Source of the DNA: a virus
Virus record (IMG/VR): IMGVR_UViG_3300043499_000285
Coordinates: 1-34,557 of that record
Length of the DNA: 34,557 bases
Strand: one strand, 5' to 3'
Shown: piece after piece, positions 8,672 through 32,256 of the stretch
How positions within the stretch are numbered: the stretch's first letter is position 1
Layout: each line of letters begins with the position of its first letter
Position numbers and translations under genes: made by a program
Notes under the pieces: generated by a model
Told to the model about the DNA's origin: nothing
The model's input: the letters and a program-made list of their open reading frames with translations, nothing else
Database searches by the model: none

Positions 8672-8916
8672 GGGAGACATGGGCGATCGAGACTTACCGT
8701 GGGCTGCGTGAGGATGCAGCACTACTGATAAGCGAAGGATATGGTCGTAGCGACGTGTGGGCGTTTCCGCTCGCGATGCTATGGACCGAAGCCGACATCG
8801 CCAGGGAACGCATTCATTATCGGGTTGCTACCGAGTCCGTTCTTATCAGAGCGGCTATTGTAGATGTATTGTCTGGAGGGAACCATCTGCGCGATAGCCT
8901 AGAGGAACTGCGGTGA
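8228..8916 (+). CDS. Tail assembly chaperone, long GT form made by -1 ribosomal frameshift
   Basis: The G frame reads ATA AAA AAA TTA at 8585-8596. A -1 slip on A_AAA_AAA (8587-8593) puts ribosomes into a frame that stays open until TGA 8914-8916, whereas the same frame has a TAA at 8569-8571 just upstream. The product would keep 122 residues of G and gain 107: a flexible SPTGDGNVGASG linker, then a conserved-looking helical T part (WAIETYRGLREDAALLISEG, WAFPLAMLWTEADIARER, ESVLIRAAIVDVL). The T part has no good independent start and ends at the tape measure GTG. This copies lambda gpG/gpGT in order, slip direction and size (229 residues). Frameshifting itself is inferred. Confidence 0.8.
8587..8593 (+). 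promoter_or_regulatory. Programmed -1 frameshift slippery site A_AAA_AAA
   Basis: The heptamer is in register with the G frame (codons AAA 8588-8590 and AAA 8591-8593, preceded by A). Both tRNA-Lys can re-pair after slipping back one base. About 30 bases downstream, GGGA..TCCC (8624-8634) and a second G-rich run could form a stimulatory hairpin. A stop in the -1 frame only 16 bases upstream makes this the practical entry point to the T frame. Confidence 0.78.
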
Positions 8917-11900
8917 GCGACCGGGGCGATCTCTCACGGGACATCCTGCTACGCATTCGGGCGCAGAATCTTTCTACGGCCGAGTTCAATCAGGCTAAAG
9001 CAGCGGTCGATAGTTTAACCGCTTCCCTCGACAAGCAGATCGCGGCGGCGAACAAGGCGGAAATCAGCGAGAGAGAGCTTTCCGCCACCCTGACCAAGTT
9101 GGAGCAGGCAACCCGGAGTTTCACCGGGCTTGCTACTGCGATCGACCAGTTCAAATCGTTTGAGCGGGTCATCGCGGCAAGCGAAGCACGGGTAACGACA
9201 GCCCGTGAGAGGCTTGAAGCGTACCGGTCGAAGCTTGAACAGACCAAGGACACCAGTGCCGCAGCCGAGCGGATGATGTCCACGCTGACTACCCGGCTGG
9301 AGAAGCAGGAAGTCGTCCTTCGTGAGAATGTGCAGACGTTCGCCGAGATGGGCCAATCGCTCACCAAGGCCGGCGTTGATATCAACAACATCGCCCAGGC
9401 GGAGGATAGGTTAAAGGCGGCGGCCGATCAGGCTGGCGTGGCTATCACGAAGCTGAGTGAGGCCAAGCTCAACTTAGCCGAGAACACGAGGAAGGCGAAA
9501 GAGGAATCGAGGAAGCTCGCTGAGGCGACAGCCGCAGAGGCAGCCGAGCAACGCAAGGCGGCAGAGGCATACGCTCAATCGGTTAAGGCGCAAGAGGCCG
9601 GTCAGCTACAGGCGTTCCAGGCATTCAAGACCACGGAGAAGGCACGGGCGGATGCGAACGCTAGGTTCGTCGCTCAGGTACGCGAAGGCTTGGTCATTGT
9701 CAGGAGGGAACAGGCTGAGAAGGTTGCGGCGGCGAAGGCGGCGGCGGACGCACAGATCGCCGAGGAGGCGCGGGTAGCGCAACGCACCAGGGAGATAGCA
9801 CGGCAGCGGGAGACGGACGCGCTTGCCGGTTTCCGGCGGCTTCAAGCCCGATTGAGGGGTGAGGAAACCGCTGCCGCAGCACCGGCTAGGACACCGACCC
9901 CGTTACCCGGTGCGGGGCCACGTACCGACGCGATGGGGCGACCTGGGCGTGGTGCTGCCGGTACGCCGGGGTTCCTGGGGCTGCGCCCCTACGAACTGAC
10001 TAACCTGGGTTACCAAGCCTCAGACGTGTTCACCGGCTTTACCAGTGGGCAGAATCCACTTCAGATCCTGGCGCAGCAGGGACCGCAGATCCTCCAAATT
10101 TTCGGTATGGCTGCGTTGAAGTGGTTCCCGCTCGTTGCGGTGGCCGCTACTGCCGCAGCGGTTGCTATAGGAGCGTTGAATAAGAGCCTTCAGGAAGCTG
10201 CATCGCTACGTCAGTTTGATGCAGCGTTAACGGCTAATGCCCGCGCGATTGGTTACACCAAAGAGCAACTTGTAGGTCTTCAACACGCTGTTGAAGACAT
10301 GGCTGTCTCCTGGGAAGACGCCGGCAAGATAATCAATCAGGCGGTTAAGGCGAACATTCGGCCAGAATTACTTCAACCGTTTGCACAGCTAGCGAAGGAT
10401 ATATCTCGCGTTGAAGGCGTCGATATCAAAGACGCGATGGCCGATCTGATTAAGGGTTTGACTGGTGGTCGGGAAGCGATCGAGGATCTGACTGCCAAGT
10501 ATCCGGCTCTTAAGGGAGCCCAGCTTGACCATGTTCGTACTCTCCTGGAGGAAGGGAAGAAAGGCGAAGCACAAATTGAAACCCTTCGCATCTTGTCTGG
10601 CGTGTATCGGGATGCGGCCGAAAAGGGCACGGGTCCGCTTACCAAGGCTACCGAGAACCTAAGTAAAGAATGGAACCATCTTCTCGATACGCTTGGTAAA
10701 AGTCAGGTATTTAAGGATCTCGTAACCGTTCTCACCAGTGTCGTTAGCGGGCTGGGTAAAGCCGTTGAATATGCGGATCAACTCGCTAAGAAGATGGGTG
10801 ATCCGAATTTCCAACTTGCCCTTAAGATAGCTTTTTTTCCTGCCTACGCCATCGGGAAAACGGTTGGCGCTGCACACACTGCGATCTACGGCCCATCACC
10901 GGTAGCAGAGGCGGGGATTGGAGGAGAACGTTTTAGTACCGGAACCGCGAAATTCGATACCGATCAGCTTCGCCTTCTTGCTCAGATATTAACCGAGGCG
11001 TCTAAATCGCTCCCCCCTGGCTACCGAGTGGAGACTTCTAATACGGAACGCCCTGGTGCCGTAGTAGCCGGCACCGATCGGCCATCGGAGCACGGTTTTG
11101 GGCGCGCGATCGATGTTCGCATTGTGGATGACAAGGGACAACCGGTTCCCGGTTTTATGGGGGCGGGCGGACCGGTTTACCAAGCTTTCGATAAAGCCGT
11201 AGAAGCTGCGGCGGCGCGGATAGCTCCAGGTCAAGCGGTTGCTATTGGAACGCGGTTTACAAAACAAGATTCCGGTCACTACAGCCTAGGTGGTCAGGAG
11301 GCCGCTAACCAAGCCGCTCGAACTGGCGCAGGTACTACTGGTACGCAGACCGGACCGACAGAGGCGCAGGATAACGCGGCAGCCCGGATCATCCAGCAAC
11401 AAAAAGATCAACTGGACATAATGCGGGCGCAATCTGAGGAAGCAGAGCGACAGGTAGTTCGTCGGAAAGCTCTTGCCGAGGCACAAGCAACAGGGGCCAG
11501 CGACCAGAAGCAACAAACCATTGTCCAGCAGGCGCTGGATGAATTCAACCAACGGAAAGCACGGGAGAACTTTGAAAGGGAACAGCAGGAGGGAAAGCAG
11601 AAGATCCAAGATGGTAACGATTACAGCCGCATTCAGGCAGCCGGTGCCAAGGCACAAGCTGACGCGATAGCGGCAGGGGTTCAGGGCTACGAAGTCCTAA
11701 AGACGATTAGAGATAAAGGCGAAGCCGAAGAACGGGCTTTGATCCAGCGACGAAAATCCGAGACAGATCAACTCGACGCCGCTCAGAAGCGTGTCGACGA
11801 ACTTCGGCGCGGCCTTTTAAACGAACACAAATCGGCGTTGGATCAACTCAACACAGCCACAAACCTGCGTTACGACGAAGAGATCAAACAGCTTGACAAG

Positions 11901-13025
11901 CTGGCAGAGCGCCAGAGTACGACGGACAAAGCCAAGATCGATGGCATGAAGGCGCAGACCGAGGAACTGCGTAAACAGCAGCTTGCCCGGAACGAGTTGA
12001 CCGCTGCCGAAAAGCAGGGACAAGAAGCACTTCAGACCCGCCAGTATCTGATTCAAACCTACACCAAACTTGAAGAAGCCGGCGTGATCACGATTAGCGA
12101 AAAGGAGGCGAAGCGCAAGGAAGCCTACGATCTTACCCGGAAGGCGATCCTCGATGCAGCGGATGCGATTCAAAAATTCATCGACGCCAATAAAGGAACG
12201 TTGTCGGAAACCGAGGTCGCCAAACTCACTGCCCAGATGAAGGAGTTGCGCGCGGAGACGCAATACACCAGCGAGTTTATGAAGGGTCTGCGTAGCACAA
12301 TCAGTTCGTCTCTAGGCACCGGGTTGGAGACTGCATTCAACACCGTGTCCGAGGCAATCGGTGGGGCGATCGCGAAGACCAAGGAATGGAAGGACGTTCT
12401 AACGGCAGTCAAGAATGCCGGTATGAACCTGTTCGCGCAGTTGTTAAAGGATATCGCGAGTTACCTGATCAAAGCGGAGGCAGCGAAACTTGCGTCTAGT
12501 TTGTTCGGTGTCGATACCGGTGGTGCCGGCGGCGGCGGTATCGGCGGCTTCTTCGGTAAACTGTTAGGGTTTGGCTCCCAGACAGGTACGAATCTAGCGG
12601 GAGCTACGATAAGCGGGACCGCTTCGACGGTGGCACCGGTTGCAACCAGCACGCTCGCACCTGAAGTGTCGATGCTGTTCTTCCATAGAGGCGGTGTTGT
12701 TGGTCGGGGAGGCGTCCCCGGAACGGCACCGGCATCGTGGTGGGACCATGCACCGCGCTACCATCGAGGATCTGTGGTCGGGATGGGCGTGAACGAGCAA
12801 GCCGCTATCCTACAGCGTGGTGAGGAGGTACTGACCAGGGACGATCCAAGGAACGTTATGAACCGTGCGCGTGGTGGGGGTGGCGGCGACATCAACATTC
12901 GGTCGGTGTTGGTCGATGACCCGCAGCGCATCCCGAACGCAATGTCGTCGTCAGCGGGTGAGCGGATCGTGGTGCAGCATATGGTCAAGAATGCAGCCAC
13001 GCTTCGTTCGATCGTAAAGGGCTGA
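8913..13025 (+). CDS. Tail tape measure protein with embedded M15-like peptidase domain
   Basis: A 1370-residue protein; the GTG overlaps the GT stop. Residues ~1-310 are long coiled coils. Residues ~350-430 hold YELTNLGYQASDVFTGF, NPLQILAQQGPQIL and a hydrophobic segment (LVAVAATAAAVAIGAL), typical of lambda-type tape measures. Around residues 685-790 is a domain with S-E-H-G-F-G-R-A-I-D (His727, Asp734) and DSGHYS (His789), the zinc-ligand pattern SxHxxGxAxD...H of M15 (VanY / D,D- or L,D-peptidases). More coiled coil follows to ~1130, then a Gly-rich segment and the usual C-terminal HRGGVVGRGG and RGEEVLTRDDPRN motifs. It sets tail length (roughly 0.15 nm per residue predicts ~200 nm) and may cut peptidoglycan during DNA entry. 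Confidence 0.9.
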   Translation: MSDRGDLSRDILLRIRAQNLSTAEFNQAKAAVDSLTASLDKQIAAANKAEISERELSATLTKLEQATRSFTGLATAIDQFKSFERVIAASEARVTTARERLEAYRSKLEQTKDTSAAAERMMSTLTTRLEKQEVVLRENVQTFAEMGQSLTKAGVDINNIAQAEDRLKAAADQAGVAITKLSEAKLNLAENTRKAKEESRKLAEATAAEAAEQRKAAEAYAQSVKAQEAGQLQAFQAFKTTEKARADANARFVAQVREGLVIVRREQAEKVAAAKAAADAQIAEEARVAQRTREIARQRETDALAGFRRLQARLRGEETAAAAPARTPTPLPGAGPRTDAMGRPGRGAAGTPGFLGLRPYELTNLGYQASDVFTGFTSGQNPLQILAQQGPQILQIFGMAALKWFPLVAVAATAAAVAIGALNKSLQEAASLRQFDAALTANARAIGYTKEQLVGLQHAVEDMAVSWEDAGKIINQAVKANIRPELLQPFAQLAKDISRVEGVDIKDAMADLIKGLTGGREAIEDLTAKYPALKGAQLDHVRTLLEEGKKGEAQIETLRILSGVYRDAAEKGTGPLTKATENLSKEWNHLLDTLGKSQVFKDLVTVLTSVVSGLGKAVEYADQLAKKMGDPNFQLALKIAFFPAYAIGKTVGAAHTAIYGPSPVAEAGIGGERFSTGTAKFDTDQLRLLAQILTEASKSLPPGYRVETSNTERPGAVVAGTDRPSEHGFGRAIDVRIVDDKGQPVPGFMGAGGPVYQAFDKAVEAAAARIAPGQAVAIGTRFTKQDSGHYSLGGQEAANQAARTGAGTTGTQTGPTEAQDNAAARIIQQQKDQLDIMRAQSEEAERQVVRRKALAEAQATGASDQKQQTIVQQALDEFNQRKARENFEREQQEGKQKIQDGNDYSRIQAAGAKAQADAIAAGVQGYEVLKTIRDKGEAEERALIQRRKSETDQLDAAQKRVDELRRGLLNEHKSALDQLNTATNLRYDEEIKQLDKLAERQSTTDKAKIDGMKAQTEELRKQQLARNELTAAEKQGQEALQTRQYLIQTYTKLEEAGVITISEKEAKRKEAYDLTRKAILDAADAIQKFIDANKGTLSETEVAKLTAQMKELRAETQYTSEFMKGLRSTISSSLGTGLETAFNTVSEAIGGAIAKTKEWKDVLTAVKNAGMNLFAQLLKDIASYLIKAEAAKLASSLFGVDTGGAGGGGIGGFFGKLLGFGSQTGTNLAGATISGTASTVAPVATSTLAPEVSMLFFHRGGVVGRGGVPGTAPASWWDHAPRYHRGSVVGMGVNEQAAILQRGEEVLTRDDPRNVMNRARGGGGGDINIRSVLVDDPQRIPNAMSSSAGERIVVQHMVKNAATLRSIVKG

Positions 13026-13026
13026 C

Positions 13027-15540
13027 ATGCCGGCGCTGTGGGCAACCGATACGGTGGTGTCATCCGGTAGCTTCGGCGGCAAAACTGCGTTGCCGAACGG
13101 GTCTTCGATGTATCCGGGCCAGTGGGTCGATAGCCCGAATGGCGCTTTTCGGTTGTTGTTTCAAAAAGACGGCAACCTCGTCTTGCTGCAACTGCCGTCT
13201 ACCGTCCTCTGGGCCACCGCCACGGAGAATCAGGGGGCCACTTGGCTGATCATGCAGCACGACGGCAACCTCGTCATCTACGCCGACGAGGACGCCCTGT
13301 GGTCGAGTGACACTGACCACAATGATGGTGCTTACCTGTCACTCCAGAACGACGGTAACCTCGTCATCTACTCGTTTGAGTCACTAGAGAAGCTGGCGGT
13401 CTGGGCGATGCGCCCTAACTGGCGCGGTGGCATGAGCGAGACGCTGGAATGGATGACAACCGTTGCCGAATCCCCGATGGCGTTCGAGCAGCGCATGGGG
13501 CTGCGGCTCAGCCCACGACAGCGGCTCGAATGCAGCTACATGCTAACCGGTCCGACCCGGACCTATCTCGACTTGCTGACGATTGCGACAGCGGGTTCGC
13601 CGATCTACGTGCCCCTGTGGCACGATGTCTGTCACCTCACGGTAGCGGCTTCCAGTGGCGCTACGACGATCTACCTCGATACCAGCTATACCGAGCTTCA
13701 GACGTGCCGCTACGCGATCCTCGTCAATCTTGACCCGTTCACCTACGAGTTGGTTGAGATCGCTGGGTATGGTCCCGACCACCTCGATTTGGCTACACCC
13801 ATCACCGGCAGTTGGCTGATCGGCACGCGGGTGTTGCCAGCGAAAAAGTGTAAACTTGAGAGCCAACCACAGTTTGCGCGACGAGCCGATCGCACTGCGG
13901 AGGTACGGGTAAGGTTTCAGTCGTTGGAACCGAATCGCTCGAACGCCGTGTCGCGCCTTGGGGTCTACCACAACAACTACGTATTGGAGGAGGATACAGA
14001 CGAACAGGATTTGTCTGTACGTTATGACCGTAAATGGTTTTCGCTCGATAACGATATCGGTACCCCGATCCAATACGACGTCACCGGCTTCACGCATCAG
14101 GATTTCGCGTGGTTCGCCAAGGGCCGCGCGGCGCATTGGCAGCTACGGGGTCTGTTCTACACGTTGATGGGTCGCCTGATGCCGCTTTGGCTGTCATCGG
14201 GCATGATCGACTTTGAACTGGTCACGCCGATGTTCGCGGTGGATACGACGATGCTGGTCAAGCGTGTCGGTTATACCGACATGGGCGGGCCGTTTAAACA
14301 CCGTGACCACATTGTGATCCAGCTTCGCGATGGGGTACGGCTCTACCGGGAGATCATAGCGGCGGCGAATGTTGGTGATCTGGGTGAGCACGAGCAGCTT
14401 GCGATTGACGTATCCCTTGGGCGAGATGTAGGGCTGCGGGATGTGCGGCGCATCAGCTTTCTGACGATCTCGCGACTTGATCAGGATCAAATCGAATTCT
14501 TGCACCCTGTCGATACCCAAGGGGTTACGACTGTTAACGCGGTGTTCCGGACTGCGGTGAACACCGGAGCCGGTCCCGCGCCGCCAGAACCGTTTCCAGC
14601 GGTTCTGTTTCAGGTGCCCGCCCCGGTTCCGGCATACCTATCGAGGGCCGCGTACATTAATATAACGACAATGTTGCAAAGCGCGGGGCCATTAGCCGGC
14701 GTTGGTTCCACTCCTACCGGCATCTATAGTATTTGGTTTCGCCAGATTACGACGTATCCAGGCGCGGAGTCTGGGCTGGAGAAGTATTGGTACGATTTCT
14801 TTTGCCGACTTTCTTCGGTGCTTTCCGTACCCGGTGATTCTAGTTTCCCAGAGGTGCGATTAACATCCGGTGGCTCAGAAGGGGGTGTTTATAATTTCCT
14901 TTTCAATCCGGTTAATAATGACGTGCCAAGGGTGACGCAGTTGATGACTGACTTCAATCCGATTGAGATCAATCAGGATGATGGACATTGGCATCACATC
15001 ATATTTGCGTGGGATTTGAGTACAGCTAACCCTTACACGATGTTCCACTTATACGTCGATGGCGTATCCCGTCGCGACATGGCCGCTGACGTGATCGGTA
15101 CGATCCCCCCGACCACGATTGATTATTCATCCGGGCCGGTCAATGTGTTCGGTACGTTCCCCCCGCTTCACTCCACTGAAGACGGTATGATAGCCGAGTT
15201 GTACTTCGCCCCTGGACAGTATCTCGACCTGTCGAATCCAGCAAACTTGGCGAAGTTTTACAACGCGGGCTATGCGGTTGAGCTTGGTAGTACCGGATCA
15301 ACGCCAACCGGAACCGCGCCGGCAGTTTATCTTAGTGGCCCCGGTGGCCCTGGTTATCCGTTTAGTGATAACAGGGGGACTGGTGGCCCGATCGATATCG
15401 TGGTGAATACGCCTGATACCAATCACGGGGTATATAATGTTGATGCTACAATATGGTCAAAAAAAATAGGTGAAATATTCGTGTACGGCCCGGCACCCTT
15501 TCCAAGACCACGCGACCCCTTTCCAGGAACTCCAACATGA
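13027..15540 (+). CDS. Distal tail / hub protein with N-terminal GNA-type lectin and C-terminal ConA-like domain
   Basis: An 837-residue protein in three parts. Residues ~20-128 have three repeats of the bulb-lectin mannose-binding motif QxDxNxVxY: Q46-D48-N50-V52-L54 (Tyr lost), Q77-D79-N81-V83-Y85 and Q107-D109-N111-V113-Y115. Residues ~137-500 start SETLEWMTTVAESPMAFEQR followed by LRLSPRQ, the pattern of the minor tail protein usually encoded between tape measure and DUF2163. Residues ~530-800 look like a LamG/concanavalin fold (DGHWHHIIFAWDLS, FHLYVDGVS, MIAELYFAPGQYLDLSNPAN). The C-terminal part is richer in A+T than the rest. It probably forms part of the baseplate and binds host glycans; ligands are inferred. 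Confidence 0.78.
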   Translation: MPALWATDTVVSSGSFGGKTALPNGSSMYPGQWVDSPNGAFRLLFQKDGNLVLLQLPSTVLWATATENQGATWLIMQHDGNLVIYADEDALWSSDTDHNDGAYLSLQNDGNLVIYSFESLEKLAVWAMRPNWRGGMSETLEWMTTVAESPMAFEQRMGLRLSPRQRLECSYMLTGPTRTYLDLLTIATAGSPIYVPLWHDVCHLTVAASSGATTIYLDTSYTELQTCRYAILVNLDPFTYELVEIAGYGPDHLDLATPITGSWLIGTRVLPAKKCKLESQPQFARRADRTAEVRVRFQSLEPNRSNAVSRLGVYHNNYVLEEDTDEQDLSVRYDRKWFSLDNDIGTPIQYDVTGFTHQDFAWFAKGRAAHWQLRGLFYTLMGRLMPLWLSSGMIDFELVTPMFAVDTTMLVKRVGYTDMGGPFKHRDHIVIQLRDGVRLYREIIAAANVGDLGEHEQLAIDVSLGRDVGLRDVRRISFLTISRLDQDQIEFLHPVDTQGVTTVNAVFRTAVNTGAGPAPPEPFPAVLFQVPAPVPAYLSRAAYINITTMLQSAGPLAGVGSTPTGIYSIWFRQITTYPGAESGLEKYWYDFFCRLSSVLSVPGDSSFPEVRLTSGGSEGGVYNFLFNPVNNDVPRVTQLMTDFNPIEINQDDGHWHHIIFAWDLSTANPYTMFHLYVDGVSRRDMAADVIGTIPPTTIDYSSGPVNVFGTFPPLHSTEDGMIAELYFAPGQYLDLSNPANLAKFYNAGYAVELGSTGSTPTGTAPAVYLSGPGGPGYPFSDNRGTGGPIDIVVNTPDTNHGVYNVDATIWSKKIGEIFVYGPAPFPRPRDPFPGTPT

Positions 15541-16325
15541 CTTCACCCACTTACATCTGGACCGAAGTGGGGGAGGAGAGCGTCAATGTAACTGATACGT
15601 TTCTGCTGGCGGGCTGGTTTCAAATTCCACCATTCGATGGATCGCTTCAAGTGTTCGCCGCGATGTCTGATAGTGAGGGGGTTTTTGAAATTGACCTGTC
15701 ATTCAGCGGAGGTATCGTGTTTGTTGATGTAATGATCAGGGAGACGCGGTTCGGGGATATGGTTGTGGACGAGGGCACGGACTACTTGGATGACCCACCA
15801 AATCATCCGTACATCCAGGGTGGATGGAACTCGTTTGCGCTGAGCGGTCGGTTTTCCAGCCAGACGATGCAATACATGATCAACCGACAACTTCTCGACC
15901 CGAATGTGAATTGGCACACCACCGGACCTGTGACGTTCGTTGCTGGCACTGAGTGGGCGGTTGGAGCGGGGCGCGCGTATCCCGGTTTCGCGTTAAGTGA
16001 TTGGCGGTTTAGCTATGGTGAGCCGTTCTTCGACCTGTCCAATCCAGGCAACGTGGCTCGCCTGTTTGGTGGAGGTCCGGTGGATTGGGGACCAGCCGGG
16101 GAATTCGTTACCGGTCTTATCCCCAAGGTTTTCCTTCACGGCGACGCTGCTACGTATATGGACAATCCGGGGTCATTGGGGAAGTTCACACGGGGTGACA
16201 CACTACTGCTGCTGGATACACCGGGACCGGGTTATGGCACCTCCGGTAGGTCGATCACGGCTCCAGCCGAGACGGTAGTGTCGAGTGAGGGTATGGTGGT
16301 TGTTACCACCGTTGGGAAAACGTAA
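15537..16325 (+). CDS. Tail protein with ConA/LamG-like domain, related to the C-terminus of the preceding protein
   Basis: A 262-residue protein; ATGA overlap with the previous gene. Residues ~20-185 have the strand pattern of a jelly-roll lectin (TFLLAGWFQIP, FEIDLSFSGGIVFVDVMIRE, GGWNSFALSGRFS, TMQYMINRQLL, ALSDWRFSYGEPFFDLSNPGN). The segment FFDLSNPGNVARLFGGGPVD..GEFVTG..PKVFLHGD parallels YLDLSNPANLAKFYNAGYAV..STPTG..PAVYLSGP in the preceding protein, so the two domains are paralogues. It probably decorates the tail tip or side. The lectin role is inferred from fold pattern only. Confidence 0.65.
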   Translation: MTSPTYIWTEVGEESVNVTDTFLLAGWFQIPPFDGSLQVFAAMSDSEGVFEIDLSFSGGIVFVDVMIRETRFGDMVVDEGTDYLDDPPNHPYIQGGWNSFALSGRFSSQTMQYMINRQLLDPNVNWHTTGPVTFVAGTEWAVGAGRAYPGFALSDWRFSYGEPFFDLSNPGNVARLFGGGPVDWGPAGEFVTGLIPKVFLHGDAATYMDNPGSLGKFTRGDTLLLLDTPGPGYGTSGRSITAPAETVVSSEGMVVVTTVGKT

Positions 16326-17194
16326 TGCCCGTCATTGGGTACGAAGTCTCAGGGTATGGCGGGCGACCGATCGAGCTTTTCGAGTTCATTCGCACGTCGG
16401 GTGGGATCGACTACTATTGGCGCTACACCGGTTCAGATCGAAACGTCTGGCATAACAATGTCGAGTGGAAAGCGGTGCCGATTCGGCACGATGCTATTCG
16501 CTTGAGCAGTGAAGCGCAAAGCACGACGCTGGTGGTCACGCTGCCGATCGAAGAGGAGTTCTGTCAGCAGTTCCGGTACTTCGGGACACTGCCGTCAGAT
16601 ACCGTTTGGCTGCGGTTGCGCCGCGCGCATGCGGGTGACATGACTGATCCCGATGGTATGGCACCCACGATATCGGACTCGCTGGTGACGTGGATCGGCA
16701 CCGTCAACGGGATCACGCAAGTTGACGAGGTTGAAGCCAAAGTGACTTGCGCGATGCTGGCTGCCAGTTTTCAGCGGGGTGGATTGAGGTACGGCTATCA
16801 GCGTAACTGCCCACATGCTTTGTACGCACCCAACACCTGTAAGGTTAACCGCGAATCGTTTCGAGTGAACGGGGTGGTTACCGTCATTAGCGGGCTGACG
16901 ATCACCGCCCCTGAATTCGCCACTGAACCTGATGGCTGGTTTGCTGGTGGCTTTATCGAATACCCGCTTCCTGCTGGTATGATCGAACGGCGCATGGTGG
17001 TGGCGCACGTTGGCACCCAGATCACCTTGGTCGGGATACCCGTGGGGGTGGATGTCGGTGACACGATCGCGGCTTTTGCCGGGTGCGACCGGGTCGTTGA
17101 TACTTGTGTCAATAAGTTCAACAACCTTGGAAACTTTGGAGGGTTTCCGCATACGCCCGGTCGCAACCCGTTCGACGGCAAACCGGTGTTCTGA
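16325..17194 (+). CDS. Tail hub protein, DUF2163 / phage BR0599 family
   Basis: A 289-residue protein beginning one base inside the previous stop (TAATG). The N-terminal half has the DUF2163 layout (LFEFIRTSGGIDYYWRYTGS, VEWKAVPIRHDAIRLSS, LVVTLPIEEEFCQQFR, VTWIGTVNGI). The C-terminal half carries YGYQRNCPHALYAPNTCKVN and the BR0599-type signature FAGCDRVVDTCVNKFNN followed by NFGGFPHTPGRNPF. Conserved cysteines in these motifs probably bind a metal or form disulphides. In gene-transfer agents and alphaproteobacterial siphophages this protein belongs to the baseplate hub and is encoded just before the NlpC-like or small proteins and the tip protein, as here. Confidence 0.9.
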   Translation: MPVIGYEVSGYGGRPIELFEFIRTSGGIDYYWRYTGSDRNVWHNNVEWKAVPIRHDAIRLSSEAQSTTLVVTLPIEEEFCQQFRYFGTLPSDTVWLRLRRAHAGDMTDPDGMAPTISDSLVTWIGTVNGITQVDEVEAKVTCAMLAASFQRGGLRYGYQRNCPHALYAPNTCKVNRESFRVNGVVTVISGLTITAPEFATEPDGWFAGGFIEYPLPAGMIERRMVVAHVGTQITLVGIPVGVDVGDTIAAFAGCDRVVDTCVNKFNNLGNFGGFPHTPGRNPFDGKPVF

Positions 17195-17442: not shown

Positions 17443-17645
17443 GCCGTATCTACATGCGCCACTTGCGTGCGGCCGGTATGTGCAACCGCGAACCCCGCCT
17501 CTGGTTTGCCGCGCACGGTTTTAGCTGGTCGGATTTTGTCACGAACGGCATCTCGGTAGCCGAGGTCGAAGCGACCGGGGACGCATTAGGGTTAATCGTG
17601 GTTGAGGTGGCGAAGCGAGAGGCTGCCGATGTCCAGCGGCGGTAA
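17439..17645 (+). CDS. Small conserved tail-module protein
   Basis: A 68-residue protein from a GTG that overlaps the previous stop. Motifs: RIYMRHLRAAGMCNREPRLW, FAAHGFSWSDFVTNGI and EATGDALGLIVVEVAKREA. I recall this type (short, 'YCs.G.r.ff..hgldw..fl..Gi......tgDa.a..~v..A') next to DUF2163 genes, with no assigned role. It overlaps the next gene by 17 bases, suggesting coupled translation within the baseplate module. Confidence 0.7.
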   Translation: MSRIYMRHLRAAGMCNREPRLWFAAHGFSWSDFVTNGISVAEVEATGDALGLIVVEVAKREAADVQRR

Positions 17646-20202
17646 AGGTGGCAGCAAGTCACAGGTCACCGGCTACAAGTATTTTATGGCCGTGCAGATG
17701 GGCATCGGTCGCGGACCGATTAATGAGCTTACCGAGATCAAGGTAGGCGATCTTAACGCGTGGTCGGGTAACCTCACAGTCAGCGACTTCCAGGCGATCA
17801 ATCAGCCAAGCCTGTTTGGTGGTGACCAGAAAGAGGGAGGGATTGTTGGCACCTTCAAGCTGTTGATGGGTGCGGCGGATCAGGTTGTCGATTCGATAAT
17901 CACTGGTGCCATAGAAGGCGGGTTCCCCGTGCCCGGATGGCGGGGTGTATCGACACTGTTCTACAACGGACAGATTGGTTCGAATAATCCGTATCCGAAG
18001 CCCTGGAAGATGCGGGTCAATCGCCAGACCGCCGGCTGGGACGGCGATGTGTGGCGGCCCGATCTTGCTGTCATCCCGATGACTACGGCTCCCCTGACCC
18101 TGGTCACCTTCAATACCCAGCCGCATTCCGGCGACGGCATCGCCATTGGCGACGAACAGGTAGATTTTTTTACCTACCTTACTGGCTCGAGTCACAACGT
18201 AGCGATCGGCTCCACAGCGGAAGAAACCGCCTCGCGTTTTGCCGCCGTCTTGAATGGGCACAGCGGTGAACTTTATGACGTGAACGCGACGGTCAACGGT
18301 CTGATCGTGTCGCTGTTGTTCCCCGACCCGGTAGCGGTACAGGAGATTCGCGGTAAGTTTACCTCGATCAGCCAGCAGGGCGGCGGCATCAAAGCGATGA
18401 ACCCTGCCCACATCCTCTACGAGTGCGCCACTAATAACGTCTGGGGTCGCGGGATGCCGCGATCCTTTATCGATCACGCGAGCTTTACAGCGGTTGCGCA
18501 GCAACTCATCGCCGAAGGCTTTGGGATGTGCATCCGTTGGAACCGGCAGGAGGATATCGATAGGTTCGTTCAGGTCATCGTCAACACGATTGGCGGTGTA
18601 GTTTACATCGACCGACAAACGGGGTTGTTGAAGGTACGTTTGATCCGTGCCGACTACGCCCCGGAATCCCTACCACTCTATACATTCGAGAATGGCATCC
18701 TCGAAATCATTGAGGACGAGTCGAGTGCGTCCGACACAACTTTTAACGAGATCATCGTTTCCTACATCGATCCGGTGACCGGACGGAAGGGTCAAGTCAG
18801 GGTTCAGAACCTCGCTTCGTTTCAATCGCTGGGCACGATGATCTCGACCACAGTCGAATATCTCGGTGTGCCAATCCCGGCTCTGGCGATGCGGCTCGCG
18901 CAACGCGATCTTCAGGCGAATTCGTCGGATGTACGCCGAATGCGAATCAAGTTTGACCGGGTCGGGTTTGCCTTCGCGCCGGCTGATGTGTTTCGGATCA
19001 GCGCACCAAGCCGTGGCATCGGAAACTTAGTTTTACGTGTCGGGGAGATCGAAGAAGGTCCGCTTGACGACAACACGATAACCGTCATCGCCATCCAGGA
19101 TGTGTTCAGCCTGCCCGCTACCAGCTTTGTAACCCCGCAACCGAGCTACTGGATACCCCCTGACCGCTCAGCAAGGATCGTTTCCGAGCGGCTGGTGGGC
19201 GAGATGACCTACCTTGATCTTAGCGAAAACCTGCCACCAGCCGAGCTTGCAGCGGTGCCGGCAGATACCGGCGCGATCAAGATCTTCGCCGAACAGCCCG
19301 GTGGCGCGTCTCAGGATTACGTTGTCTCCAGTAAGACTACGACAGAATCGAGTTTTGTCGAACGCAACATCGCCGGGTTTGATGCCGGTGCCGAACTGGT
19401 TGCGGCCATTGGGTTGCGCGATACGACGTTTAGCTTCAAGAGCGGCAGTTCAATGGAGTTGGTAACGGCGGCGATCGGTACTCCGATCGTCCTCGTAAAA
19501 AGGGGTGATCCAACGGTTCAGGAATACTGCCGCCTTGAGGACATCGATCTATTGACTGGTGAGATGACGGTGGCGCGTGGCTGCATCGATACCGTCCTAC
19601 ATGAGTTCAAGGCGGATGACAAAATCTGGTTTCAAAGCCACGCGCCGACCACGGACTTTCGCGACTACTCGACCAGCGAGATCGTCCAAGTCAAGCTTCT
19701 CACACGCACTTCAAGCGAACAGCTTGATGCCGCTGTCGCCGATACCGATGAGGTGACGATCGGCGGGCGGCAGGGGCGACCCTACCCACCGGGTAACCTG
19801 AAGATCAACGACGTTCCGTATGAAGAAAACATCGTGTCTACGGACGCCGATCAGGAACTGACCTGGGCGCATCGTGATCGGATCACGCAGGGTAACTTCC
19901 TGCTGGAGCACGCGGCGGGTAGCACTGGGCCGGAACCCGGCACCACTTATACGATCCGCGTTTACGACGGTGCCGACCCCGAGCCGACGACGTCGCTGCG
20001 GACCGTTAGTGGTATTACAGGTACGTCGTGGACTTACGATGGCGGGATGGATACCGCAGACGGCGAACTTGCTTCCTATTGGTTCGAGTTAGAATCGGTG
20101 CGGGGTGGTCTTGTATCATGGCAGCGCTACCAGTTTCGGATCTATCGTACCGGGGCTTTTGACGACGACTTCGACTACAACTTTGATGGGGGGCCACCCT
20201 GA
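17629..20202 (+). CDS. Central tail tip / host-specificity protein (lambda gpJ-like)
   Basis: The ATG at 17629, behind GCGAGAGG, gives an 857-residue protein opening SSGGKGGSKSQVTGYKYFMA, as tip proteins of this type do. It contains NPAHILYECATNNVWGRGMP (a hallmark of TipJ-like proteins), a conserved central part (FENGILEIIEDESSASDTTF, NEIIVSYIDPVTGRKGQVRV), FDRVGFAFAPADVFRISAPS, and C-terminal FN3-like strands (residues ~720-850; ELTWAHRDR, TYTIRVYDG, WFELESVRGG). It closes the tail tube and, with attached proteins, contacts the receptor. The length is moderate compared with lambda gpJ (1132). Confidence 0.87.
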   Translation: MSSGGKGGSKSQVTGYKYFMAVQMGIGRGPINELTEIKVGDLNAWSGNLTVSDFQAINQPSLFGGDQKEGGIVGTFKLLMGAADQVVDSIITGAIEGGFPVPGWRGVSTLFYNGQIGSNNPYPKPWKMRVNRQTAGWDGDVWRPDLAVIPMTTAPLTLVTFNTQPHSGDGIAIGDEQVDFFTYLTGSSHNVAIGSTAEETASRFAAVLNGHSGELYDVNATVNGLIVSLLFPDPVAVQEIRGKFTSISQQGGGIKAMNPAHILYECATNNVWGRGMPRSFIDHASFTAVAQQLIAEGFGMCIRWNRQEDIDRFVQVIVNTIGGVVYIDRQTGLLKVRLIRADYAPESLPLYTFENGILEIIEDESSASDTTFNEIIVSYIDPVTGRKGQVRVQNLASFQSLGTMISTTVEYLGVPIPALAMRLAQRDLQANSSDVRRMRIKFDRVGFAFAPADVFRISAPSRGIGNLVLRVGEIEEGPLDDNTITVIAIQDVFSLPATSFVTPQPSYWIPPDRSARIVSERLVGEMTYLDLSENLPPAELAAVPADTGAIKIFAEQPGGASQDYVVSSKTTTESSFVERNIAGFDAGAELVAAIGLRDTTFSFKSGSSMELVTAAIGTPIVLVKRGDPTVQEYCRLEDIDLLTGEMTVARGCIDTVLHEFKADDKIWFQSHAPTTDFRDYSTSEIVQVKLLTRTSSEQLDAAVADTDEVTIGGRQGRPYPPGNLKINDVPYEENIVSTDADQELTWAHRDRITQGNFLLEHAAGSTGPEPGTTYTIRVYDGADPEPTTSLRTVSGITGTSWTYDGGMDTADGELASYWFELESVRGGLVSWQRYQFRIYRTGAFDDDFDYNFDGGPP
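19023..19037 (+). repeat. 15-base copy of the AAACTTAGTTTTACG sequence inside the tip gene
   Basis: The sequence AAACTTAGTTTTACG is identical to 3586-3600 near the gpD ribosome binding site, 15 kb away. It belongs to the nine-member AAASTTAGTTT family. Being inside a coding region, it cannot be a simple promoter operator for an adjacent start. Confidence 0.45.
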
Positions 20203-21026
20203 TGCCCGGTACTAGTGGACCCAACCTAGGGGTCGTATGGGGGTGGACACCGCACGAAGACGGCTGGGGTGTCGGCGGGTTCAACCCTAACTTCGCGAAG
20301 CTCGATGCGCTGGTGCATTTGGCCGTGCTCGATCGGATGGATTCGCCACCCGTCATCCTGCCCACAAATGGTGATCGCTACATCGTTGGCAGTGCGGGAG
20401 CAGGCGCGTGGGCGGGGCATTCCAACTCGATTGCGGTCTTTCAAAGTGTCACTACAGATTGGTTTTTTTATGCGCCAAAGCAGGGCTGGCAAGCCTGGAA
20501 CTCTCAAACCGATTCGGTCTGGCTATTCGACGGCACGGTCTGGGCCGAGAACGTTGCTGCGGGGTTCGAGTTCACGACACCCGCCGACAACGACGTCATT
20601 GTCTACGATGATACGACGAGCAAGTTCATCAATGTCAGACCGATGCGCGGTCTATCGTTCGGCAGCGATCCCGCCGCGTTGCTCACTGCCAATCAGGCGC
20701 TCTTCTACCACCGATTCAGCTTCCCGTTCCGGATACCGCCGGATTTCGGAGACTACCTGAATGCGTCCAGTACGTTGGGCGGGACTGCCGCAGCCGCTAG
20801 TGGCGATGTTGTGCTACGTGTACAGAAGGCACTCGCCGCGACACCGCTTACCTTCACCAATGTCGGTACAATCACGGTTGGCAACGGTACGGTCAATGCC
20901 ACGTTTTCCTCGTCTGCGACTGCCGTCAATTTCGCCAAGCGGGACGTTATACGCATCCTCGCCCCGGTGACTCCCGACAGCGGGTTCACTGGGCCATACG
21001 GTACCATTGTGGGGTATGAGACATGA
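20202..21026 (+). CDS. DUF2793 tail protein
   Basis: A 274-residue protein; ATG overlaps the tip stop by one base (TGATG). Residues ~20-125 match DUF2793: DSPPVILPTNGDRYIVGSAG, GAWAGHSNSIAVFQS, WFFYAPKQGWQAWN and DSVWLFDGTVW. This domain is known in alphaproteobacterial phages and gene-transfer-agent-like clusters, near tail tip genes. The C-terminal ~130 residues contain fibre-like beta segments (LNASSTLGGTAAAASGDVVL, GTITVGNGTVNATFSS). It is probably a tail-tip accessory or fibre base. Confidence 0.82.
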   Translation: MPGTSGPNLGVVWGWTPHEDGWGVGGFNPNFAKLDALVHLAVLDRMDSPPVILPTNGDRYIVGSAGAGAWAGHSNSIAVFQSVTTDWFFYAPKQGWQAWNSQTDSVWLFDGTVWAENVAAGFEFTTPADNDVIVYDDTTSKFINVRPMRGLSFGSDPAALLTANQALFYHRFSFPFRIPPDFGDYLNASSTLGGTAAAASGDVVLRVQKALAATPLTFTNVGTITVGNGTVNATFSSSATAVNFAKRDVIRILAPVTPDSGFTGPYGTIVGYET

Positions 21027-21682
21027 CCGGATTTACCGATCGCGTGTCGCGCGGGGTTCTTAATCACGTCACCGGCAAGACGGCCATGTTTACCCTGTCC
21101 ACAGCCTACATCGCGCTGTTCACAGCGGTGGGGTTGGACGATGGCACCGGGTTCGTGGAGGTGTCGGCGGCAGGGTATGCCCGTGTAGCGACCGCCGCCG
21201 CCGACTGGAATACCGCTGGCGGTTCGGCACCGAGTACGATCAGCAATGCCGCCGCGATTAACTTCCCGCTGCCGGGGGCAGCCTGGAGCGGGGTGATCGC
21301 CTTCGGGCTGTATGACGCCTCGACCAGTGGAAACCTGTTGGTATGGGACTACCTGGGTAACTTCGATTGGTTGCCGGCGACCGTGTCGCTCGCTTCACCG
21401 GGGGTGTTGACCGTACCCGGTCATGGCTTCACGGCGGGGGATCTCGTCATCTGGACAAACGAGTACGGTGGGTCCAGTCCAACCTTCTCGCAGTCCAACT
21501 TCACGGGTCCGCTGACCGTGACCGGCCCCGCCGCGAACACGTTCACTGCGACTAACGCCGGCACTGCGGTTAACACCAGCAGCGTGGGTAATGGGATGCT
21601 GCGGAAGCTGGCGGCTCAGACCCTTGCTAGCGGTGTCCCGGTCGCATTTCCAGTTGGGTCGTTAACGATCGCTTCGGGATGA
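21023..21682 (+). CDS. Phage tail fibre-like protein
   Basis: A 219-residue protein in an ATGA overlap. The first ~120 residues (LNHVTGKTAM, YIALFTAVGLDDGTGFVEVS, GYARVA, NAAAINFPLPGAAWSGVIAF, GLYDAS..GNLLVWDYLG) form a pattern widespread in phage tail fibre-associated proteins (mycobacteriophage Gp80-type as I recall). The rest has LASPGVLTVPGHGFTAGDLV and GPAANTFTATNAG, a short beta unit also seen in other virion proteins. The end VPVAFPVGSLTIASG completes the first domain, so the second unit is inserted in it. Confidence 0.75.
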   Translation: MTGFTDRVSRGVLNHVTGKTAMFTLSTAYIALFTAVGLDDGTGFVEVSAAGYARVATAAADWNTAGGSAPSTISNAAAINFPLPGAAWSGVIAFGLYDASTSGNLLVWDYLGNFDWLPATVSLASPGVLTVPGHGFTAGDLVIWTNEYGGSSPTFSQSNFTGPLTVTGPAANTFTATNAGTAVNTSSVGNGMLRKLAAQTLASGVPVAFPVGSLTIASG

Positions 21683-28080: not shown

Positions 28081-28309
28081 CGGGACAGTAGCCGGGACAG
28101 TGGTTTTGGGGTAGGCTGTAAACCCTTGAAATCGTTGGCGTCCCCAACCGGATTCGAACCGGTGTTGCCGCCGTGAAAGGGCGCAATAAAAGACAATAGT
28201 GGAAATAGTAGAAACCACCAAGCCGTTGAAATCAAGTTATTTTGACCAATATGCTGTCATGCTGTACCGTAGCGTTCTTAGCTGTCCGGGACAGTGGCCG
28301 GGACAGTGG
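28081..28309. other. attP: 3' half of tRNA-Glu as core with two pairs of arm repeats
   Basis: Read on the minus strand, 28183-28136 is the 3' part of a bacterial tRNA-Glu(TTC): anticodon arm CGCC-CTTTCAC-GGCG, T arm ACCGG-TTCGAAT-CCGGT, acceptor GGGGAC and GCCA. No 5' half is present, so it is not a functional tRNA but the piece that restores a host tRNA after integration. Paired direct repeats flank it, each pair spaced 12 bases: CGGGACAGTAG (28081) and CGGGACAGTGG (28093) on the left; CGGGACAGTGG at 28287 and 28299 on the right. These look like integrase arm sites. AATCAAGTTATTT (28230-28242) is close to an IHF site. TTGAAATC occurs at 28126 and 28226. A weak promoter candidate (TTGACC 28242, TACCGT 28265) faces the integrase. 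Nothing else is seen in this 320-base gap. Confidence 0.85.
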
Positions 28310-28329
28310 CTCATTTCTCCGAGGTAGGC

Positions 28330-29517
28330 ATGACGATCGAGACGAAGACGGCGAGACTGCGGCTGGAGGTGCGATGGAAGCCGTACTGGATGCGGCTTTC
28401 GGGCGGGATCTCACTGGGTTACAGGCGGACGGACGAGGTTGGCACGTGGTCGGTGCGGCTTGCGGACGGCAAGGGCGGGAACAGCGTTAAGCGGATCGCT
28501 GCGGCCGATGACGTAAAGCGAGCGGACGGCCGGGAGGTGATGAGTTTTGCCCAAGCGCGTGAGGCTGCACTGCGGCTGGGGCGAAGCGAGGACGAGGGCG
28601 AGATCGCTCCGGTGGTCACGACTCTGGCGGATGCTGTTGAGACGTACCGGACCGATCTGGCTGCCCGTAATGGGCGGGGGGATAACGTGACCCGGTTGCT
28701 ACACAACCTGCCCACTGCGATGCTGAAGCGCCCTATCGGGTTGCTGGATGTTGAGGAATTACGGAAGTGGCGGAACGGCCGGAAGATGGCCCCGGCGTCG
28801 GTCAACCGGCTCGCCACGATTCTGAAAGCGGTGCTGAATCTCGCGGCGACTAAGGATATGGGGTTAAGCAAGAGGGCATGGGAGATCGCGCTGTCGGCGA
28901 TACCCGAAGCTGAATCGGCCAACAACGTGGTGTTGTCCGAGTCCACGGTGATACGGTTGGTATATGCCGCCCGTGAGCAGGGTGAGGAATTTGGTATACT
29001 CGTTGAGGTACTCGCGGTGACGGGGGCACGGTATTCGCAGCTTGCCCGGTGTCGGGTGCGCGACTTGCTGGACGACCGGTTGATGATCCCGAGTAGCGCG
29101 AAGGGGACCAAGAAGCGGGTTACGCGGGTGCCGGTGCCGGTGCCGGATACCCTGGTAGCGGCGTTGCGCGTAGGGGCCGCTGGGCGGTCTGGGGGTGACT
29201 TTTTACTCGTGAAGGCATCCGGACAGCCTTGGGCCAAGAGTGACCACGCACGGCCCTTCAGGCGGGCCGTAGAGGCTATCGAGGAAGACCCGGAGACGGT
29301 GACCAGCTACGCTTTGCGGCATACACACATAACGTCTCAGTTATTGGCGGGGCTACCCGTCCAGCTTGTTGCGAAGTTGCACGATACGAGCGCGAGTCAG
29401 ATCGAACGGCATTACGCGGCGACGATCGCGAGTCAGACCGATGACTTCGTGCGGGCGTCGATGTTGCGGGTGGACAGGGTTGCGGTGGGCGATAATGTGG
29501 TGAGGATGCAGAAATGA
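28330..29517 (+). CDS. int: Tyrosine-family site-specific integrase
   Basis: The ATG at 28330, behind GAGGTAGG, gives 395 residues; a GTG at 28294 lies within the arm repeats and is unlikely. Residues 1-75 are a basic arm-binding region, 95-190 a core-binding domain (TLADAVETYRTDLAARN, ASVNRLATILKAVLNLAATK), and 200-395 the catalytic domain. Active-site residues: Arg234 (VTGARYSQLARCRV), Lys in KGTKKRVTRVPVP, Arg330 (YALRHTHIT), His351 (KLHDTS) and Tyr362 (ERHYAATI). The usual His three residues before Arg330 is Tyr327, a known tolerated position. It should catalyse recombination at the adjacent tRNA-Glu attP. Confidence 0.95.
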   Translation: MTIETKTARLRLEVRWKPYWMRLSGGISLGYRRTDEVGTWSVRLADGKGGNSVKRIAAADDVKRADGREVMSFAQAREAALRLGRSEDEGEIAPVVTTLADAVETYRTDLAARNGRGDNVTRLLHNLPTAMLKRPIGLLDVEELRKWRNGRKMAPASVNRLATILKAVLNLAATKDMGLSKRAWEIALSAIPEAESANNVVLSESTVIRLVYAAREQGEEFGILVEVLAVTGARYSQLARCRVRDLLDDRLMIPSSAKGTKKRVTRVPVPVPDTLVAALRVGAAGRSGGDFLLVKASGQPWAKSDHARPFRRAVEAIEEDPETVTSYALRHTHITSQLLAGLPVQLVAKLHDTSASQIERHYAATIASQTDDFVRASMLRVDRVAVGDNVVRMQK

Positions 29518-31340: not shown

Positions 31341-32201
31341 TCACAAGTCCACATCTTCGAGTTGCTTCTTCTTGGAGACGCGCGGCTTGCGGGGCTTGCG
31401 CAGGGTGGCGTCAACCTCTGCCATTGCTTCCGTGTCTCCCTTGGACCATCGCGTAAGGAAGTCCACTATTCCAGTGGGCAGGGAACAGCCATAGGTGATG
31501 GCTGCCATGGCTTTGCGTACCGTTACGCCTGTGGAATTGCGCTTCCTTGGAGTAGTGAGTACTTCATATAGTTCATCCTGATCGGGGATCTTATGGGCCA
31601 TCCTAATGATGCGGGTGGCCGACACCTTGTTGTACATAGCCAACTCTTGGATTCTCATGTCCAAGCTGTGCAGGAGCAGGAGATTTTTAATGTGGGTAAT
31701 CGATATATCCAATTTTTCCTTGATCTCGGCTTCGTTATACCCGCCTCCGATCAGGCGCTTCACGATAACACCTAACTCCCATGGGGGAAGGGGATTCCCA
31801 GTGTTGTCTCGGTGAATGGCGATTTGGATGTCGAGATCGCTGCCGCCCGGTGCGCGAATCACTATTGGGAGCTTTTCGATCGGGTAGCCCTGATCCCTGG
31901 CCCTCTTAGCGGCTGCGAGGCGGGTGAACCCCCCGGTAATCTTAAACACGTCGTTGCCGTTGGCATCCTTGGCGATCACAGCAGGGAGCGGCTGGTGCTT
32001 GTAGAATCCGTTTTGCATGATCGATGCCGCAAGGTCTTCGATCCGGTCCTCGTATGCCTCGTTGTGAACGCGGACGTTCAGTCCTGGGGTGACGACGATC
32101 TCATCGATCAGCACCATAAAGAGATCAGGTGACTTGGCATTCTGCACAGCACGGGCGTTGCCCGGCTCAAAGTTAGTTTTGTGGTCATATGAGGGTAGCA
32201 T
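31341..32201 (-). CDS. ParB-like DNA-binding / CTPase-fold protein
   Basis: The ATG at 32201 follows AAGGA at eight bases and gives 286 residues; the longer GTG start at 32240 falls in a hairpin. Residues ~30-140 have the ParB/Srx-type N-terminal layout: NVRVHNEAYEDRIEDLAASI, QNGFYKHQPLPAV and GGFTRLAAAKRARDQGYP (equivalent to the GERR box), then IHRDNTGNPLPPWELGVIVK (equivalent to the E-N-x-Q-R-x-x-L-x-P-x-E motif). Residues ~150-175 form a helix-turn-helix (YNEAEIKEKLDISITHIKNL). The C-terminus is basic (RKPRKPRVSKKKQL). No ParA is nearby, so it may regulate transcription or methylation-like functions rather than partition. The next gene upstream is GapR-like. Confidence 0.88.
   Translation of the reverse strand: MLPSYDHKTNFEPGNARAVQNAKSPDLFMVLIDEIVVTPGLNVRVHNEAYEDRIEDLAASIMQNGFYKHQPLPAVIAKDANGNDVFKITGGFTRLAAAKRARDQGYPIEKLPIVIRAPGGSDLDIQIAIHRDNTGNPLPPWELGVIVKRLIGGGYNEAEIKEKLDISITHIKNLLLLHSLDMRIQELAMYNKVSATRIIRMAHKIPDQDELYEVLTTPRKRNSTGVTVRKAMAAITYGCSLPTGIVDFLTRWSKGDTEAMAEVDATLRKPRKPRVSKKKQLEDVDL
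32169..32179 (+). promoter_or_regulatory. AAAGTTAGTTT site at the 5' end of the ParB-like gene
   Basis: One of nine members of the motif family; the longer match AAAGTTAGTTTTGTGG resembles AAAGTTAGTTTTATGG at 33703. It lies about 22-32 bases downstream of the ATG at 32201 (within the coding sequence), where a bound protein could block transcription or mark the gene. Confidence 0.35.
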
Positions 32202-32256
32202 TGGCACATTCCTTATGCGGAGGTTCGGTGCGCACGGCACCGGGCGCGGGTGCGCT

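Follow-up and report, generated by a model that had tools for sequence, protein, structure and literature searches.

The 34,557-nt stretch of viral DNA analyzed here, hereafter the window, carries a run of tail genes on the + strand in the order tape measure, distal tail protein (Dit), BR0599, two small proteins and hub, with one extra ORF (15537 to 16325) between Dit and BR0599. The gene of the tape measure protein (8913 to 13025; TMP_2, phrog_2335) lies directly upstream of that for Dit, whose 837-aa ORF (13027 to 15540) starts a single base after the tape-measure stop codon. This Dit consists of an N-terminal lectin domain of the GNA/MMBL (B_lectin) type (13027 to 13380, residues 1 to 118), a core (13381 to 14560, residues 119 to 511) and a C-terminal extension (14561 to 15540). 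Further downstream, the BR0599/DUF2163 baseplate protein (16325 to 17194), recognized by Pfam and PHROGs, occupies the position of JBD30 gp50, the upper baseplate protein, and the J-like baseplate hub is encoded at 17602 to 20202.

The window also encodes other fibre-like proteins, one at 20202 to 21682 and an S74-chaperoned fragment at 1 to 1158; the latter, located ahead of the head genes, is a C-terminal portion that includes a chaperone domain of the S74 endosialidase type. Within the tape measure, a stretch at approximately 10953 to 11387 contains the sequences SEHGFGRAIDV and GHYSLGG, reminiscent of motifs in M15-type peptidases; searching the PDB sequences with this stretch gave no match. 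Integrase and ParB-like genes at 28294 to 29517 and 31341 to 32240 indicate that the phage is probably temperate, and a search for tRNA genes in the window found none. Two scans of genome contigs found no relative of the window phage. The nearest isolate phages, which infect Sinorhizobium, Erythrobacter and Burkholderia, are distant, with hubs 37 to 43% identical to that of the window.

The carrier of the lectin domain

The initial annotation had placed the lectin on a tail hub protein, an assignment that we revise here. Residues 122 to 509 match phrog_1082 (E = 4e-96), and the core retrieves gp49 of the Pseudomonas phage JBD30 (8rk3_U; E = 2e-47) and the Dit of phage Chi (8vjh_B; E = 2e-33) by sequence. 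The predicted fold of the core finds the same two structures in Foldseek (8rk3, E = 3e-34; 8vjh, E = 9e-29). Homology to the J / gp53 hub falls instead in ORF 17602 to 20202 (JBD30 8rk3_o, E = 1.6e-139; Chi 8vjh_A, E = 9e-154), and the baseplate hub was accordingly rejected as the carrier. It is close to certain that the lectin sits on a Dit of the JBD30/Chi type, with which the window protein shares core, fold and gene neighbourhood. The sequence SETLEWM, which had been pointed out behind the lectin, belongs to the start of the Dit core. A BLAST match of residues 49 to 122 to MP29-type Dits was read as a Dit alignment running into an unrelated domain and set aside; repeats like those of the lectin were not found in MP29-type Dits.

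The two structurally characterized Dits differ from that of the window at the N-terminus, where their first ~175 to 194 residues are not lectins. In JBD30 gp49, N-terminal residues 2 to 74 wrap the side fibres and residues 75 to 174 project from the tail axis (PMC11445458). In the window, Dit follows the tape measure without any intervening gene, so JBD30-type fibre genes are absent at this place. The lectin takes the position of gp49 domains I and II, which make up these N-terminal residues.

At the other end of the protein, Pfam and comparison with relatives show a C-terminal extension whose residues 649 to 684 weakly resemble a Laminin_G_3/ConA-like domain. This extension resembles, by sequence comparison, the C-terminal part of the separate protein encoded at 15537 to 16325. 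In relatives L005 to L011, it is replaced by an unrelated extension of ~480 aa, and the phages bearing that extension do not have ORF 15537 to 16325. Given the weak LamG/ConA-like stretch, the extension and the related part of the neighbouring ORF might represent a second carbohydrate-binding module.

Repeats and fold of the lectin domain

Three Q-x-D-x-N-x-V repeats start at residues 46, 77 and 107 of the Dit ORF, just where the initial annotation had seen them as the mark of a GNA-type lectin. Site 1 (QKDGNLVLL; 13162 to 13188) is degenerate, whereas site 2 (QHDGNLVIY; 13255 to 13281) and site 3 (QNDGNLVIY; 13345 to 13371) are intact QxDxNxVxY motifs and predicted sugar sites. The regular spacing of the three motifs is thus confirmed, two being exact and one having its tyrosine replaced by leucine, a loss noted from the outset. 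Across the six reading frames of the window, the Q.D.N.V pattern is matched by these three repeats only, and in 100,000 shuffles of the 144 N-terminal residues not one contained all three (mean 0.0014). Of a putative core triad of tryptophans, W62 comes after site 1 and W92 after site 2; the candidate for the third is W5, in the N-terminal strand, or W126.

Sequence and structure comparisons agree on the nature of the domain. The Pfam B_lectin model (PF01453) matches the ORF in two stretches (E = 1.5e-6); the hmmscan score of 29.1 bits compares with a cut-off of 32.4, and the two stretches joined reach 40.9 bits. With phmmer, the best PDB matches were pyocin L1 (E = 4e-29), then pyocin L2 and putidacin L1 (LlpA; E = 4e-20), while plant GNA-type lectins matched at ~1e-11 to 1e-15. 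The structure prediction proposed earlier as a check was run with AlphaFold2 on an alignment of 20 lectin rows. Residues ~20 to 118 were modelled at block-mean pLDDT of 75 to 94, with an additional N-terminal strand at residues 3 to 6. In Foldseek, the top match of this model was the D-rhamnose complex of pyocin L1 (39% identity, E = 1.3e-10); snowdrop GNA superimposed with a TM-score of 0.80 by target length and an rmsd of 1.4 Å. Comparison with the snowdrop, garlic and pyocin L1 structures confirmed the beta-prism II fold. A fold search of BFVD with the lectin returned no named phage tail protein among the matches. When lectin and Dit were modelled together from an alignment with mixed N-termini, the lectin remained unplaced (pLDDT <50 there), probably because unrelated N-terminal domains had been aligned onto it. 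We consider it close to certain that residues 1 to 118 constitute a real and complete GNA/MMBL-type (B_lectin) beta-prism.

Kinship to the pyocin L-type bacteriocins, also suspected initially, is borne out: the nearest solved lectins by sequence and fold are those of pyocin L1 and LlpA bacteriocins (4le7, 4led, 3m7h). Like the sugar-binding C-domain of pyocin L1 and LlpA, the window lectin has two intact sites and one degenerate QxDxNxVxY site; in LlpA, the conserved Val of such a site has been mutated to Tyr (PMC3585409). Unlike LlpA-type bacteriocins, which are free proteins made of tandem lectins and a C-terminal extension, it is a single lectin fused to a virion protein. With one lectin on a Dit, no tandem pair and no bacteriocin extension, the window protein is not itself a lectin-like bacteriocin.

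Gain, conservation and exchange of the lectin

A search for the same fusion in related phages recovered nine IMG/VR contigs, all uncultivated, in which it is kept at ~85% identity (ten contigs with the window). Sites 2 and 3 are canonical in all sampled relatives, with the exception of a V-to-A change in site 3 of L003, whereas site 1 is degenerate in every relative, always without its tyrosine, and in L007 has also lost the aspartate. Judging by these sequences, site 1 is probably inactive. The dN/dS ratio of the lectin, 0.07 to 0.15, is as low as that of the Dit core, values that are approximate because several pairs are close to saturated at synonymous positions; by this measure, the lectin evolves under purifying selection. 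Ten contigs, purifying selection, near-intact sites, the correct fold and a single open frame together contradict the idea that the domain is a dead or chance lectin-like repeat without function, or a fusion created by misassembly. That idea could draw on the single-protein Pfam score of 29.1, just below the cut-off, and on the fusion being seen in uncultivated contigs only; we regard it as extremely improbable.

Dits of the same kind also occur without the lectin. The Dits of L030 and L032 are 44 to 47% identical to that of the window and lie next to a tape measure of the same kind; in L030, the downstream genes, too, are of the same kind as in the window. These proteins begin MSDLSLPVWSLYPDW right where the tape-measure gene ends. 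Similarly, the lectin-less Dit of L140 (38% identical) starts MALENLVVW, and the BcepNazgul Dit likewise has no N-terminal domain at all. The starts of the L030, L032 and L140 proteins align from window residue ~119 (SLEKLAVW..PNW), which places the lectin ahead of the ancestral N-terminus. Relative to these sisters, the alignments indicate a clean gain of the lectin at the N-terminus of Dit. In this respect the fusion qualifies as an "evolved Dit," with an extra, predicted carbohydrate-binding domain that the sister Dits of L030, L032 and L140 lack.

Once acquired, the lectin has also been exchanged. L011 and L007 are 98 to 100% identical on either side of the lectin, but identity falls to 84% inside it, and there L011 resembles L003 instead. 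At the informative sites of L011 between window positions 12960 and 13319, 44 are L003-like and 17 L007-like, while the flanks are nearly all L007-like (Fisher p = 5e-24). As read from this distribution, the L011 segment is a cassette exchanged by recombination, with edges near those of the lectin. The donor must have been a relative of L003 and not L003 itself, because L007-like sites persist within the segment. Such a pattern is what would be expected of a specificity cassette.

To see where else such lectins occur, we considered viral contigs scanned with a degenerate site pattern, with 61 ORFs among the matches listed. A lambda gpL-type minor tail core (phrog_18, PF05100) was present in 31 of these 61, the lectin being internal, in several copies or in front of the core among the matches listed. 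L117, L103, L127, L149, L134, L100 and others are PF05100 proteins with one to several GNA repeats. As in the window, a GNA lectin is thus grafted on a tail-tip protein in such cases (L117, L127, L149 and others), which nonetheless differ in carrier and insertion points, sometimes have several copies, and carry more distant lectins. At the threshold applied, 15 of the 61 ORFs among the matches listed resembled tandem lectins of the pyocin L kind, two of these being long multi-lectin proteins that are not bacteriocin-like.

A lectin also occurs in a BR0599/DUF2163 protein of L140 (L140:3806-4429); it is 54% identical to that of the window and follows residue ~111, and the contig ends inside it, which leaves this case incomplete. 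In a tree, this lectin groups with that of the window (98/99) on a long branch. In L226 (L226:2674-3948), a B_lectin stretch interrupts a complete BR0599/DUF2163 protein at the corresponding profile position (~115 of phrog_778), within the same internal loop as in L140. On the whole, we lean slightly toward seeing GNA lectins, of the kind that also arms Pseudomonas bacteriocins, as mobile modules for adhesion at siphophage tail tips, repeatedly grafted onto different baseplate proteins (the Dit N-terminus, a BR0599/DUF2163 loop, gpL-type proteins) and swapped among related phages as a cassette that changes the polysaccharide gripped.

Other GNA-bearing phage proteins came up in the same context. 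L227:4529-7963 (1145 aa) and L120:1667-6616 (1650 aa) are long phage proteins with GNA repeats, and L110, L119, L224 and similar are pyocin L-like tandem-lectin proteins in Pseudomonas phages or viral contigs. The Pseudomonas phages with GNA matches (Hali, Riah and OQ658367) were rejected as carriers of the fusion, the combination of lectin and Dit being absent from them; Hali encodes a free pyocin L-like tandem-lectin protein of ~280 aa (L013:3563-4402) near an integrase.

A putative adhesin of the tail tip

Our preferred reading is that the window Dit is an evolved Dit whose lectin serves as an accessory adhesin for mannose- or D-rhamnose-type polysaccharide; we consider a role in adsorption likely. 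Surface exposure, stoichiometry, sugar binding, ligand and role in adsorption are all features that we infer, the binding of mannose- or rhamnose-containing polysaccharide from the conserved sites. The Dit core would connect tail tube and baseplate, with the N-terminal lectin projecting from the baseplate ring. By the JBD30 Dit trimer, each virion should carry three lectins with two intact sites apiece. These may bind mannose-like residues, of the D-mannose or D-rhamnose type, in capsule, exopolysaccharide or O-antigen; binding would be reversible and multivalent, bringing the tail tip to the cell, after which a separate fibre or tip protein would make the committed contact. Our preference for D-rhamnose or D-mannose comes from the nearest solved relative, pyocin L1, which binds the D-rhamnose of LPS (PMC6240691). 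As the phage encodes other fibre-like proteins, the lectin is probably not its main, nor its sole, receptor-binding part.

Speaking against an adhesin, not every GNA fold binds sugar: the ability can be lost, or the partner can be a protein, as for the N-domain of LlpA, which binds BamA (PMC6240691). The lectin might accordingly be structural, replacing domains I and II of the JBD30 Dit and stabilizing the baseplate or anchoring a fibre by protein contacts, its sugar sites being leftovers. It does sit where the JBD30 Dit holds the side fibres, and the degeneration of site 1 would fit, yet sister Dits manage without any N-terminal domain (L030, L032, BcepNazgul), and sites 2 and 3 have stayed nearly canonical across ~15% protein divergence. 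Moreover, the domain has been exchanged and is found on another baseplate protein, unlike a structural part. We judge a purely structural role unlikely.

Another possibility concerns the origin of the sugar. Phage Ig-like domains have been proposed to bind mucus, and the lectin could similarly bind non-host sugars, such as plant, fungal or biofilm-matrix mannans, and hold virions where hosts live. The mannosides that GNA-type domains bind come from many sources, and the separate fibre-like proteins could take care of host recognition. We nevertheless find this reading improbable: the lectin is placed on the ring at the tail tip and not on the capsid, which speaks for contact with the cell, and the sugar bound by the nearest solved relative is a bacterial one, the D-rhamnose of LPS.

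Precedent for the accessory adhesin comes from lactococcal skunaviruses, in which evolved Dits, through inserted carbohydrate-binding modules, help the phage adsorb to hosts that bear exopolysaccharide (PMC10688798). There, as predicted here, a carbohydrate-binding domain has been added to Dit. The skunavirus modules have other folds, are inserted internally and belong to phages that infect Gram-positive bacteria, while in the window a GNA lectin heads a Dit of the JBD30/Chi type. No description of a GNA or bulb lectin in a phage tail was found in the open-access literature searched. In PHROGs, the lectin corresponds to phrog_19296, a family of unknown function, which makes it probable that many tail proteins of this sort have escaped annotation.

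The lectin has the look of an exchangeable hook for gripping sugars on the bacterial surface, one that related phages lack, swap or carry on a neighbouring tail protein. For phages with JBD30/Chi/Nazgul-type tails, the sequence predicts a sugar-binding adsorption part and the class of its ligand. The evolved-Dit idea, documented in the literature searched for phages of Gram-positive hosts, would thereby extend to another tail lineage and to another lectin fold, and phage adsorption modules would be linked to lectin-like bacteriocins that grip LPS with the same fold.
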